A stretch of 37,445 nt of DNA, taken from the NCBI GenBank assembly GCA_017548425.1, contig JAFZAB010000029.1, positions 1 to 37,445 of the forward strand. The letters are read 5' to 3'. Of this stretch, positions 29,285 through 34,253 are shown piece after piece; the first letter of the stretch is position 1; each line of letters begins with the position of its first letter. The position numbers and the translations under genes are program-made. The notes below the pieces were generated by a model. That model did no database searches, was not told the DNA's origin, and saw nothing but the letters and a program-made list of their open reading frames with translations. Origin of the DNA: Victivallales bacterium (GTDB lineage: Bacteria > Verrucomicrobiota > Lentisphaeria > Oligosphaerales > Oligosphaeraceae).

Positions 29285-29457
29285 AAAAATCCTCCATCTT
29301 ATACTTTCATGTTTCAATGCGATAAGTCAATAAATCACATGAAAAGAATGTGCAAAAAAGCGTGAAAAACAGTGCGCAAGATTGCGTTTGAGTGCTACAT
29401 TAGCTGTTCATATTGACAAGCATTACTTTTTACCATACAAATAAAAAAGGAACAGAC

Positions 29458-31719
29458 ATGCAGACGATTGATTTGAATGGCGTGTGGCGGTTGACTGGAC
29501 AAGGCAAGAAAGCGTTGGGGCCTTTCGAGGCGACAGTGCCCGGAAACATCGAACTGGAATTGGTGAAGAACAACATCGTTCCAGATCCGTATTTCGGCTC
29601 CAATGAAAAGCTGTTGCGTCCGTATGAGTTTTATGACTGGACATTTACGCGCGATTTCGATGTTCCGGCGGATTTTCCCGCCGGGGCTGATTTGGTCTTC
29701 GATTGCATTGACACCGTGGCGGAAGTTTATCTGAACGGCGAAAAAATCGCCGAGCCGGCCAACGGCTTCATTCGCCATACGTTCGCCGTCGATGACAAAA
29801 TCCGTCGTGGGCAGAAGAATACGGTGACCGTCGTTGTGAAGTCACCGATTCTCGCGGCTGCGAAATATGAACTTGACCATCGTGATAAGACGTTGTGGCG
29901 CAACACGGAAGGACTGGCATTGCGCAAGCCGATCCATGAATTCGGATGGGACATCTGCCCGCGTTGCTGTTTGGGCGGCATCACGCGGAACGTCCGCCTT
30001 GTGGAACGGCCGCCACATCGCATGATCAGTTGCTATTTCGATGTGTTGCGCGACACGCGGCCGGGCTGGGCGAACATTATGTTCACATACAATTTCGCGA
30101 CATCGCTGACGGAATGGGACGAATTCACCGTCGAAATCGACATGAAATGCGGCGATTCCGTCTATAAGAACAAATGGAAGCAGTACTTCACAAGCGGTCA
30201 CATAGGCTTCGGCATCAGCAATCCAAAGCTTTGGTGGCCACTTGGTTACGGCGATCAGAATCTTTATGACGCAACCATCCGCGTCTATTCGGGCGAGCAG
30301 TTGCTGTTTGAAGAAAAGAAACGCGTCGGCTTGCGGTCCATGGTGTTCGAATACGATGAAGATCCGAAGAATTTCGTGGCGCGTTTCGTTGTGAACGGCA
30401 CGCCGATCATGGTGAAAGGCTCGAACTGGGTTCCGACCGACGCTTTGCACAGCCTTGATTACAAGCGTGAAATTCCGATATTGGAACTATTTACGGATTT
30501 GGGATGCAATATGCTCCGCGTCTGGGGCGGCGGCACCTACTGCACGTCGGCCTTTTATGATTACTGCGACGAACACGGTATCATGATTTGGCATGATTTC
30601 ATGATCGCATGCGCGCTCGCACCGCAGACGGAAGAGTTTCTGGCCCGTTTCGCGACGGAGGTCGAATGGGCCGTCAAAGAACTGCGGCAGCATCCGAGTC
30701 TGGCGCTGTGGGCGGGCGACAACGAAGTGGATGCCATGTGCAACTGGAGCAATACCAACATCAAAGCCAGTTCGAACCGCCTGACGCGCGAAGTCATTCC
30801 GCACATTCTGAACCGTCTGGATCCGAACCGTCCATACCAGAAGAGTTCGCCGTACTATTCGCCCGAATCGGAGGCGAAGCATCTTTCGTGGGAAGCTACG
30901 CCCGAACAGCACGTCTGGGGGCCACGCGACTACTTCAAGAGTCCGTTCTATGCGGACAACAATGCGGCGTTCATCAGCGAATGCGGCTACCACGGCGCGA
31001 ATTCCGTCGCTTCCATGAAGAAGTTCCTCAGTGCGGACAACGTCTGGCCGTGGAAGAAGAAAGGCGATTGGTACACAACGAAAAACGAAGAGTGGCTCCA
31101 TCATGCGACGCTTGGCTACGACTATCGCATCCCGCTCATGTTCAAGCAGATACGAGAGGAATTCATGCTTGATCCGGACAATGCGGAAGACTTCAGCCTG
31201 GCCAGCCAGATCGTGCAGGCGGAGGCCAAGAAGTTCTTCGTGGAGAACGTCCGCATCCACAAGTGGAGGAAGGCGGGCATCCTGTGGTGGAACGTGATGG
31301 ACTGCTGGCCGCAATTCTCCGACGCAATCGTCGATTACTACTTCGACAAGAAGTTGGCCTACGATTATCTGAAGCGTTCGCAGAAGCCCGTGCTCGGCAT
31401 CATCGGCGAATGGCGCAATTGGGCACATGAGGTTGTCATCACGAATGATACGCTTCAGGAAAAGGAAGGCAAACTGACTATTACGGACGCGGACAGCGGA
31501 CAGGTCATCATGGAGCGCACCTTCCATGTCGCCGCGAACGCCAACCAAGGGCTCGGTCGTTTCGAACTGCCGAACAGCGACCAGCGGCTGTTGATCATCC
31601 GTTGGGAGACGAAGGACGGCATCAAAGGCGCGAACCACTACATCACTGGCCGTACGCCGTTGGATTACAAGAAGTACCGCGACAACTGGCTGCCGAAGAT
31701 CAAAGCTCTTGGAAATTAA
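29458..31719 (+). CDS. GH2-family beta-mannosidase-like glycoside hydrolase
   Basis: From ATG 29458 (AAGGAAC upstream) the product has 753 residues. It starts with the GH2 sugar-binding jelly roll (LNGVWRL, PGNIELEL, RPYEFYDWTFTRDF, AEVYLNGEKI). It then passes through an Ig-like domain to the catalytic TIM barrel with RVWGGGTYCTSAFYDYCDEHGI, the acid/base Glu423 in WAGDNEVDAMCNW and the probable nucleophile Glu508 in FISECGYHG. The layout is that of beta-mannosidases, which release terminal beta-mannose; the usual GNNE is GDNE here. No signal peptide is found, so it should act on imported oligosaccharides. The stop codon is inside an AATTAAC repeat. It is divergent from the SGNH hydrolase. 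Confidence 0.93.
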   Translation: MQTIDLNGVWRLTGQGKKALGPFEATVPGNIELELVKNNIVPDPYFGSNEKLLRPYEFYDWTFTRDFDVPADFPAGADLVFDCIDTVAEVYLNGEKIAEPANGFIRHTFAVDDKIRRGQKNTVTVVVKSPILAAAKYELDHRDKTLWRNTEGLALRKPIHEFGWDICPRCCLGGITRNVRLVERPPHRMISCYFDVLRDTRPGWANIMFTYNFATSLTEWDEFTVEIDMKCGDSVYKNKWKQYFTSGHIGFGISNPKLWWPLGYGDQNLYDATIRVYSGEQLLFEEKKRVGLRSMVFEYDEDPKNFVARFVVNGTPIMVKGSNWVPTDALHSLDYKREIPILELFTDLGCNMLRVWGGGTYCTSAFYDYCDEHGIMIWHDFMIACALAPQTEEFLARFATEVEWAVKELRQHPSLALWAGDNEVDAMCNWSNTNIKASSNRLTREVIPHILNRLDPNRPYQKSSPYYSPESEAKHLSWEATPEQHVWGPRDYFKSPFYADNNAAFISECGYHGANSVASMKKFLSADNVWPWKKKGDWYTTKNEEWLHHATLGYDYRIPLMFKQIREEFMLDPDNAEDFSLASQIVQAEAKKFFVENVRIHKWRKAGILWWNVMDCWPQFSDAIVDYYFDKKLAYDYLKRSQKPVLGIIGEWRNWAHEVVITNDTLQEKEGKLTITDADSGQVIMERTFHVAANANQGLGRFELPNSDQRLLIIRWETKDGIKGANHYITGRTPLDYKKYRDNWLPKIKALGN

Positions 31720-31831: not shown

Positions 31832-32455
31832 ATGCCGATCATTGATTTGACAAGACCGTTTTCAAACGAGCCGCTGTTCCGTCTGGATGCGGCAGACGTG
31901 CCGCTCGTATCGGATGCAACTCGCTACACAGGCGTGATTTACCAGTTGCATTTGGATTCCATGTGCAGCACGTATATCGATCTGCCCGGACATATTCGTG
32001 AAACGGACGACGGGCAGACGGCGGAAAATGTTCCACCAGAACGATTTTTCCGTATGCCCGCCCGCGTTGTCCATCTGTCTCGACCGTCTGGAAGCGGCGC
32101 TGTGACGGGAGACGAATTATCGGCTGGACATGAAGGGTTAAGGACGGAATGTCTTGTGATCAATGCACTTGGAAAATTGAATGCGACGGATATCGCGGAG
32201 CGGACCGTCTGGTTAGACAGCACCGCCATCGACTGGATTCTCTCCACGGGATGCCGCGTTCTCATTTCGGACATTTATGAAAGCCGACGCCTGGAAGGCG
32301 TCTTTCAACGGCTGTTCAAGGCGGGTGTCAGCACCATCTGCCTGCCGGTCAATTTGTTTGAATTGAAAGATGCCGCCACCGTCACGGCGCTTTTCTGTCC
32401 TGTACCGAAAATGACGCAGATTCCATGCCGCGTCATTGCAGAAACCACGGAATAA
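31832..32455 (+). CDS. Cyclase-family protein (kynurenine-formamidase-like) with altered metal motif
   Basis: The 207-residue product opens with IIDLTRPFSNE, the start typical of the cyclase family (PF04199) that includes bacterial kynurenine formamidase KynB. The family's metal motif HxGTHxDxPxH is represented by DSMCSTYIDLPGH (42-54). Asp50 and His54 are kept, but the His of GTH is Tyr48 and the Gly is Ser46. The segments ARVVHLS and LVINAL continue the fold. No kyn genes are near, and the tryptophan role is unlikely. Given the change in the metal site, it may be a hydrolase for another amide or lactone, or have lost activity. It lies 112 bases after the GH2 gene. The ribosome binding site is weak. 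Confidence 0.75.
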   Translation: MPIIDLTRPFSNEPLFRLDAADVPLVSDATRYTGVIYQLHLDSMCSTYIDLPGHIRETDDGQTAENVPPERFFRMPARVVHLSRPSGSGAVTGDELSAGHEGLRTECLVINALGKLNATDIAERTVWLDSTAIDWILSTGCRVLISDIYESRRLEGVFQRLFKAGVSTICLPVNLFELKDAATVTALFCPVPKMTQIPCRVIAETTE

Positions 32456-32456
32456 G

Positions 32457-32550
32457 AACCACGAATGAACACGAATCAACACGATTTTTTCTTTTTTCGA
32501 AACCACAGATTACACAGATTACACAGATTTTTCACAGATTGCCTCGCCGC
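32457..32550 (+). repeat. AACCACGAATG / ACACAGATT word array, copy 3
   Basis: It starts two bases after the cyclase-family stop. AACCACGAATG and ACACGAATC words come first. Then AACCACAGATT, ACACAGATT, ACACAGATT and TCACAGATT follow, and it ends in GCCTCGCCGCC like the copies at 367 and 4844. Confidence 0.8.
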
Positions 32551-32816
32551 CGAGCCGACAACCGCCGAAAGGATTCAATGAAGAAACAAGACGTTGGTTA
32601 CGAATGCCGCAAACGGCTCTGGCGGCTACGGCGGTCTGAATCCGCTTCGCGGGAGGTGACGCTCCAACAATATGTCATTAGCAAAAATTATAAGCCATAG
32701 GCAATGAGCCATAAGCAAGCAAAGCTTTGTTTGGCCTCTGGCGGTTTATAAGCGCTTCGTGCGGAGATTGAAACGAAAATAATCAGAATTTAACTATATT
32801 TGTCAAAGAGGATGAT
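32551..32816. other. Remainder of the gene-free stretch before the fusion gene
   Basis: After the word array there is decayed sequence with repeat-like words (GGCTCTGGCGGCTACGGCGG, CCGCTTCGCGGGAGG) and ATAAGCCATAGG..GAGCCATAAGC (32690-32715), the inverse of the TATGGCT family. A short open frame, ATG 32578 to 32700, has no recognisable product. A likely ribosome binding site, AGAGGATGAT, precedes the next start codon. Confidence 0.5.
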
Positions 32817-34253
32817 ATGAAAAAGAGTGATCTTGTTAAAGGTTTGAAGGAATTAGGCTTGAAGAAGAACGATATCGTGTTGATGCACAGTTCGTTCCGA
32901 AGCCTGGGGGATTTTAAAGGCAGTGTGGATGATGTCATCGATGCGTTCATGTCGGTTCTCGGCCCGAAAGGTGCGTTGATCGTGCCCGTGTTTGGATCGT
33001 TAGGCATTCTGACGGAACGCGTTAAGGCGCGTAAGGATGTGTTCGTCAGCGAAGTGCCTGTTGGAACGTTGGCGGGCATTGGTGGTCGCGCAAAAGATGT
33101 GCTGTCAGGCCATTGGGAGGCCGAGACGGCGCATGGCGAAGGTTCGCCGTTTTTGAAAATCGCGGAAGCGGGCGGTTATATCTGCCTGCTGGGGGTCGAT
33201 CAAGACCGCAACACCACGTTGCACAGTGCGGAGGCATTGTTGAAACTACCGTATCTCGGAAGTTGCACACGGACATGCAAAGCTCCTGATGGAAAGGAAG
33301 TTACGCGCACATGGCATTATTATCCGGGGCCGCACCGCGATTTTATCGGGCTCGACCATATCATGCGCGAAAGCGGCATCATGGAAGTGTCCCGCATCGG
33401 CGACGCGCAGGTTCGTCTGATCAAAGCGAAGGAAATGCTCGAACTGATGGTCGAACTGGGCGACGAAGATCCCGCGTTCGCGTTGTGCGACAATCCCGCC
33501 TGTGCAGACTGCGTCCGTCAGCGTGCCGCCATTTTCGCGGATCGCATCGCGAACGAATCGTTCAAATTGAGCGTATCCTCCCGTCTCGCAGGACATTATG
33601 TTCCTGAAATGATTGAAAAGTTGCAAGCGGCTGGAATCAAATATGTCGAACTGGATTACGTGCAGGGCAAGGCCTGTGCATTCATGGACGCGCAGCAGTT
33701 GAAACGCATCGTCGATGATTTCAAAGAAGCGAAGATAACCGTCTCTGCTCTGCGGAGTTACGTCGTCCCGGAAGATACCAACGGCTTCGTCGGCAAGATG
33801 AAGGAAGCTGGCATTGATCGTGTCATCCTGCCGTTGTTCGATTTCTTCTATGGCGCGTCGGCGTTCGCAAAGGAAGGCATCGTCGTGGATTTCGTGAACA
33901 CGCATGTGACGCCTTCGCAAGCCGTGCAGGCATTGCTGAAAGTCGCTCCTCTCAAACGGCGTGCTTTCGTGTTTTCGCCGAGCGGTTTTGTTCTGGCCGG
34001 AAGGAATCCGTTTTTGAATGCATGGCGCGTCGGCCAGTTCATGAAGACGATTGCCCAATTGGATGTGGCCGATCGCACATGGGATGGCGAAATCCGTTCA
34101 TTTGCAAAGGGTAATGGCGAGATCAAGGAACTCGTTTCGATTCTGCGTTGCCATAATTTCAGCGGTTGGCTGACGCTTGGCGGCGGCTCCCCGTATCCAG
34201 GCAATTTGGAAGCCGCTGTAAAGGATTTCACGCATCTTTTGGATACCATATAA
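32817..34253 (+). CDS. Fusion protein: AAC(3)-like acyltransferase domain and C-terminal sugar-isomerase-like TIM barrel
   Basis: The 478-residue product has two parts. Residues 1 to about 235 follow the AAC(3)/antibiotic_NAT family: VLMHSSFRSLG (21-31), ETAHGEGSPFLKI (103-115), GGYICLLGVD and RNTTLHSAEA with His136. A Cys-rich hinge, CDNPACADC (224-232), could hold a metal. Residues about 245-478 alternate strands and helices like the xylose-isomerase-like barrels (IKYVELDYVQ, ITVSALRSYVVPE, IDRVILPLFDF, GIVVDFVNTH, RRAFVFSPSGF, FSGWLTLGGG). AAC(3)-like enzymes transfer acetyl groups to amino sugars, and most environmental members are not resistance genes. Acylation of a sugar amine coupled to isomerisation is a guess. 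AGAGGATGAT supports the start; codon use is even across both halves. Confidence 0.82.
   Translation: MKKSDLVKGLKELGLKKNDIVLMHSSFRSLGDFKGSVDDVIDAFMSVLGPKGALIVPVFGSLGILTERVKARKDVFVSEVPVGTLAGIGGRAKDVLSGHWEAETAHGEGSPFLKIAEAGGYICLLGVDQDRNTTLHSAEALLKLPYLGSCTRTCKAPDGKEVTRTWHYYPGPHRDFIGLDHIMRESGIMEVSRIGDAQVRLIKAKEMLELMVELGDEDPAFALCDNPACADCVRQRAAIFADRIANESFKLSVSSRLAGHYVPEMIEKLQAAGIKYVELDYVQGKACAFMDAQQLKRIVDDFKEAKITVSALRSYVVPEDTNGFVGKMKEAGIDRVILPLFDFFYGASAFAKEGIVVDFVNTHVTPSQAVQALLKVAPLKRRAFVFSPSGFVLAGRNPFLNAWRVGQFMKTIAQLDVADRTWDGEIRSFAKGNGEIKELVSILRCHNFSGWLTLGGGSPYPGNLEAAVKDFTHLLDTI

Follow-up and report, generated by a model that had tools for sequence, protein, structure and literature searches.

AAC(3) enzymes are known chiefly as drug-resistance proteins, and to our knowledge the normal acetylation targets of their non-resistance relatives are largely open. 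Kynurenine formamidase is a member of the PF04199 family of cyclases and metal-dependent hydrolases. Diacetamido-sugar pathways such as Wbp run from a dehydrogenase through an aminotransferase to an N-acetyltransferase. Xylose-isomerase-like barrels also occur as fusion partners, as in 5hmq, where the barrel is joined to a 4-hydroxyphenylpyruvate dioxygenase. For AAC(3)-IVa (Antibiotic_NAT group 1; 6mn3-6mn5), PMC8956665 reports a C-terminal "insert 4", unique among the enzymes compared there, which comprises a helix and a C3H1 zinc site, and names Glu185 as critical for drug contact.

The locus described here lies in a window of 37,445 nucleotides (the whole stretch of DNA analysed) from a rumen-type Victivallales bacterium. 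It encodes a fusion of an AAC(3)-like acetyltransferase with a xylose-isomerase-like barrel and, upstream, a cyclase-like protein. The fusion is like AAC(3)-IVa in fold, catalytic His and a Cys-containing C-terminal insert; AAC(3)-IVa has no barrel and, in the available part of its description, no cyclase-like partner (PMC8956665). Its second half is like the PF01261-type barrels (3p6l, UlaE 3cqj, IolI 1i60 and tagatose epimerases) in having eight strands and in matching over the whole domain (Z 18 to 21.4), and unlike them in that the E/D/H/E ligand set reads as replaced and the barrel is placed behind an acetyltransferase. Compared with 5hmq, both the partner domain and the domain order differ. 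The features were as follows:

29413-31719, + strand: GH2-type enzyme directly upstream of the pair (PF22666, 5.6e-35; PF00703, 4.4e-8)
31832-32455, + strand: PF04199 "cyclase" partner, 207 aa, motif HxGTHxDxPxH reading MCSTYIDLPGH (Pfam, adjacency, co-occurrence)
32456-32651, no strand assigned: interspersed repeat that separates the cyclase-like gene from the fusion and has no part in the function (matched at 46 other places of this genome)
32817-34253, + strand: fusion ORF of 478 aa, uninterrupted from the ATG at 32817 to the stop at 34253; AAC(3)-like acetyltransferase, zinc-type insert and xylose-isomerase-like barrel (Pfam, AlphaFold)
32817-33476, + strand: AAC(3)/Antibiotic_NAT domain, residues ~1-220, catalytic His136 and Glu139 (PF02522, VIA, invariance)
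33477-33533, + strand: AAC(3) C-terminal insert, residues 221-239, with Cys224, Cys229 and Cys232 at 33486-33512 (6mn3 alignment; predicted zinc site)
33555-34250, + strand: xylose-isomerase-like TIM barrel, residues 247-478, canonical metal ligands apparently replaced (AlphaFold, VIA, profile comparison)

Architecture and distribution of the fusion

A first-pass annotation had read the ORF as an AAC(3)-like acyltransferase joined through a Cys-rich hinge to a sugar-isomerase-like barrel. All of the landmarks that it quoted were located: HSSF at residues 24-27, HGEGSPF at 106-112, LLGV at 124-127, TTLHSAE at 133-139 and CDNPACADC at 224-232. The two-domain reading was borne out by the PF02522 (Antibiotic_NAT) match in the first half (3.4e-34; 118.8 bits, cut-off 25) and by the barrel fold recovered with AlphaFold, Foldseek and VIA in the second. 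The AlphaFold model of the whole fusion (m44b130c5d677; 34 fusion proteins as alignment input) had a mean pLDDT of 92.7 and a pTM of 0.88. Structure prediction of both halves, which the annotation had proposed as a check, gave an AAC(3) fold and an eight-unit barrel at a pLDDT of ~93.

The AAC(3) domain was complete over residues 1-239, the insert counted in. Its top match among PDB sequences (phmmer) was AAC(3)-IVa at 1.2e-19, and VIA placed the fusion model on 6mn3_A with Z 29.6 and rmsd 2.3 over 233 aligned residues at 28% identity. The phmmer alignment set His136 against His154 of AAC(3)-IVa, which is replaced by Ala in the mutant structures 6mn4 and 6mn5 (H154A). Both His136 and Glu139 were invariant in 50 of 50 homologues, and dN/dS for this half was 0.07-0.15 among the three closest copies.

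The Cys-rich stretch between the halves had been taken for a hinge, and as a novel linker it was not supported. In the VIA comparison 6mn3 aligned to model residues 1-239, beyond the cysteines; almost every other AAC(3) entry ended at ~220. Because the alignment reaches residue 239 and a C3H1 insert is described for AAC(3)-IVa in PMC8956665, the stretch is equated with that C-terminal insert, and a new metal linker was ruled out. Cys224, Cys229, Cys232 and His173 were invariant in 50 of 50 homologues. Residues 221-239 are thus predicted to form a zinc site like insert 4 of AAC(3)-IVa, with a putative ligand set. Homology of the second half to a known AAC(3) C-terminal part, which the annotation had named as grounds for giving up its reading, was accordingly found for the cysteine stretch and not for the barrel.

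Profile-based counts covered 98 related genomes and a 387-genome sample of the phylum. Barrel matches occurred in 35 of the 98 relatives (own genome included), made up of 34 fusions, one of them edge-cut, and one C-terminal fragment at a contig edge (G091); all of the other barrel matches in this set were part of a fusion. A search for the fused architecture, also suggested earlier, thus found it to recur, and since it recurs across 35 of 98 genomes, an assembly-join artefact was ruled out. The fusion is real and conserved. Its identity to the copies in other genomes was 39-87%. Across the phylum sample, barrel matches were present in 46 of 387 genomes, of which 44 were counted as fusion (the G091 fragment included) and two, G141 and G332, were left out as weak matches to other barrels. 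These two and the weak matches at G253:C628 and G060:C287 were treated as ordinary barrels; at the three of these four loci that were inspected (L120-L122) no fusion was present. Two of the 44 fusion genomes (G195 and G394) fell outside the class. A genome-contig scan with a single sequence returned three close relatives, all MAG contigs and one of them a Victivallales from water-buffalo reticulum; as a single query, it is silent on absence from other phyla. No barrel relative was confirmed among 22 candidate stretches of viral contigs. Searches of an open-access collection of papers yielded none relevant to an AAC(3)-barrel fusion or to its cyclase-like partner, and the architecture is apparently without prior description.

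Another type of AAC(3) fusion, 821-900 aa long with Antibiotic_NAT at the C-terminal end, was seen at three loci of relatives (L140:909-3560, L141:346-3048 and L142:1243-3708). Two of these (L140 and L141) had a weak Peptidase_M28 match in the first part.

The nearest solved relative, AAC(3)-IVa, is a broad aminoglycoside acetyltransferase, so the fusion might be a resistance enzyme with an extra domain. We consider this very improbable. The fusion lay far under all resistance-family cut-offs of NCBIfam (AAC_3_IV, 96.2 against 420 bits; AAC_3, 91.2 against 270 bits). The position of Glu185, the drug-contact residue named in PMC8956665, was occupied by Pro170, a proline in all 50 of the homologues, and this change makes aminoglycosides less likely to be the natural substrates. 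Strict co-inheritance with the cyclase-like gene, described below, also speaks against resistance. Of 72,556 plasmid records 664 matched the fusion, none with a match spanning 80% of the query, and the six matches listed covered the AAC(3) half only. On these plasmid records a mobile resistance gene was ruled out. Aminoglycoside resistance is probably not the job of the fusion.

The barrel half

Modelled alone from 25 sequences (AlphaFold model mda48ad0a6a3b), the barrel had a pLDDT of 93.5 and eight beta/alpha units. The best Foldseek match was 3p6l, a sugar phosphate isomerase/epimerase, at 1.2e-9. VIA gave Z 21.4 for 3p6l and ~17-20 for UlaE, IolI, IolE and ketose epimerases. Fold neighbours from the two methods included 3-keto-sugar lyases and epimerases, and Art22 was another close fold match.

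At the level of sequence the relationship was more distant. No Pfam family exceeded its cut-off in the second half of the fusion, and the barrel profile returned only noise against PDB sequences. The window barrel scored 13.9 bits against PF01261, under the 31.1 cut-off, and 14 of 25 barrel homologues touched this family at E values up to 1 (best 2.6e-7). The 4.9-Mb genome of the organism had 52 PF01261 xylose-isomerase-like barrel matches, and the window barrel was not among them. When profiles were compared, a set of 18 xylose-isomerase-like proteins (17 entries from the same genome, with one protein entered twice, plus one from a relative) aligned with the barrel over 226 columns at 96% probability and an E value of 4e-9.

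The ligand positions were mapped through this profile alignment and not through model coordinates, with a standard member aligned to solved epimerases, whose metal-binding residues we take to be the canonical E, D, H and E of strands 5-8. They corresponded to residues 360, 387, 416 and 455, which in the window are Val360, Ser387, Asp416 and Gly455. Among 50 homologues, position 360 was mixed and never E; position 387 was N in 32, S in 17 and D in one; position 416 was D in 47 and Y, E and I in one each, never H; and position 455 was G in 40, A in six, S in three and T in one, never E. Any single canonical ligand was retained in at most one of the 50. Because all four positions are changed across these homologues, the canonical metal site is, on this alignment, judged to be gone, and since its four ligands are lost, the usual metal-dependent isomerase activity is unlikely. 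The first-pass annotation had combined acyl transfer with an isomerase or epimerase step in one protein. With the ligand positions reading mixed, N/S, D and G, a step of the usual metal-dependent kind is not supported, and that proposal was probably wrong.

The barrel is under purifying selection: three pairwise codon comparisons of the closest copies gave dN/dS values of 0.12, 0.12 and 0.06. A decaying barrel was ruled out by this range. Several polar residues were conserved, with Glu278, Asp280, Asp419, Glu435 and Glu438 invariant in 50 of 50 homologues, Asn361 present in 49 and Asp416 in 47. This selection, the invariant polar and acidic residues, which are also compatible with a novel active site, and the closeness in fold to isomerases and epimerases of sugars and to 3-keto-sugar lyases speak for a bifunctional protein, in which AAC(3) acetylation would be joined to an active isomerase, epimerase or lyase barrel with a non-canonical active site. 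The change of all four canonical ligand positions and the sub-threshold PF01261 score count against it, and we regard it as unlikely.

The cyclase-like partner and its surroundings

The protein encoded upstream of the fusion matched PF04199 at 33.9 bits (cut-off 23.1). In 29 of 36 loci a cyclase-like gene preceded the fusion on the same strand. Of the seven without it, three (L060, L073 and L079) started at a contig edge and one (L058) had 865 bases of room; the remaining three (L056, L070 and L077) had enough upstream room, yet no cyclase-like gene. Among a further 17 loci, 11 had a same-strand cyclase-like gene, in three cases ~2 kb upstream and separated from the fusion by a DegT gene, and six had none, one of these (L124) being at a contig edge. 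In L048 a three-part fusion that takes in the cyclase was ruled out, since a stretch of unknown bases connects the two genes there.

Within the 98 relatives the cyclase was present in 32 of 35 fusion genomes and in none of the 63 others. In three genomes (G009, G025 and G060) it was on another contig than the fusion. Over the phylum sample, after removal of weak cyclase matches in G319, G144, G358 and G370, strong matches were present in 40 of the 44 genomes with the fusion, against three of the 343 others (G290, G390 and G407). Fisher p values were 1e-22 for the relatives and 3e-46 for the phylum, both ignoring relatedness. Three genera (g1, g40 and g45) each mixed genomes having both genes with genomes having neither, a pattern of joint switching. 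Co-inheritance of the two genes is stronger than linkage, because the association of 32/35 against 0/63 holds even with the cyclase on another contig. This co-inherited partner is new here, having been missed by the first-pass annotation.

Alignment to the PDB entries 1r61 and 8hmo, members of the family which the partner matched along with the profile, supported the register of the motif. Unlike that family, the partner read MxGTYxDxPGH, with Met at the first His position in 38 of 40 sequences (Asp or Glu in the rest) and Tyr at the second in 40 of 40; over both locus sets neither histidine of HxGTH was present in any of the 40. As a control, six other, higher-scoring PF04199 proteins of the class (L145-L148, L157 and L158) had the second His in six of six and the first in five of six, while nine module members in the same search were without those histidines. 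The metal motif of the partner thus reads as degenerate.

The cyclase-fusion gap was 361 nt in the window and in L046, but coordinates put it at ~67 nt in L047; the repeat between the genes was therefore inserted or lost recently. The genes around the pair varied widely. Glycoside hydrolases were upstream in six loci: GH2 (the window, L046 and L047), GH29 (L051 and L052) and GH36 (L134). An L-rhamnose isomerase was directly upstream in L132, and other upstream genes included butyrate kinase and a dihydrouridine synthase-like gene. A creatininase-like hydrolase was upstream of the cyclase in eight of 53 loci (L065, L066, L068, L125, L126, L127, L130 and L131). At three loci (L137-L139) a PF01636 aminoglycoside-phosphotransferase-like kinase abutted the fusion upstream, with the cyclase-like gene elsewhere in the genome. 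A protein of 555-590 aa was directly upstream of the pair at L050:5642-7342, L054:10201-11865 and L135:11110-12879; those of L050 and L135 had no Pfam match. Elsewhere in the window, two adjacent DHDPS-family genes (PF00701; 6225-7145 and 7210-8109) have the look of a tandem duplication.

DegT-type sugar aminotransferases were near the pair in four of 53 loci (L125, L127, L130 and L131) and class I/II aminotransferases were directly downstream in five (L048, L049, L053, L055 and L057). No aminotransferase was detected beside the pair in the other 44. In L127 a Gfo/Idh dehydrogenase was beside the DegT gene, and in this one relative the step types may parallel those of a Wbp-type diacetamido-sugar pathway; the acetyltransferase of that pathway has a different fold, and the likeness is limited to a few loci. 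The glycan and amino-sugar setting suggested by the first-pass annotation agrees with the GH2 gene just upstream and with the sugar-type aminotransferases of some relatives.

In a catabolic housekeeping role, the pair would acetylate amino sugars freed by glycoside hydrolases during glycan breakdown, and GH2, GH29, GH36 or L-rhamnose isomerase genes directly upstream at various loci are in keeping with this. The hydrolase type changes between genera, as it would for a pair that simply happens to lie in different operons, and the role is in our judgement improbable.

Proposed function of the module

Our tentative reading, to which we give somewhat less than an even chance, is that the module N-acetylates an amino sugar or aminocyclitol, the acetyltransferase having a metal-free barrel and a cyclase-like protein as partners. 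From its fold and the invariant His136 and Glu139, the fusion would belong to the AAC(3)-IVa type of N-acetyltransferase and would pass the acetyl group of acetyl-CoA to a primary amine on such a substrate. The barrel, with its usual metal site apparently lost, would most likely bind or position the sugar-like substrate and carry out no isomerisation. Co-inheritance and motif loss point to the cyclase-like protein as a functional partner, perhaps in a complex. Neighbouring genes in some relatives suggest that the acceptor amine would most likely be made by an aminotransferase from a keto-sugar; this pathway guess is weak because 44 of 53 loci showed no aminotransferase beside the pair and the upstream genes vary widely.

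The two-protein module is the most interesting part of the finding. A bolder version of the proposed reading, which we hold to be doubtful, is that two ancestral metalloenzymes, a sugar-isomerase barrel and a cyclase-type hydrolase, have lost their metal sites and been retained as obligate partners for an AAC(3)-type acetyltransferase that is still active, in a module new to science, and that the product is a new acetylated amino sugar or aminocyclitol of Lentisphaerota-type gut bacteria. Two metalloenzyme folds that appear to have lost their metal sites within one small module under strong selection raise the question of scaffold or metal-free catalyst. A conserved AAC(3) fusion with one specific partner offers a defined handle on the substrates of non-resistance AAC(3) enzymes.
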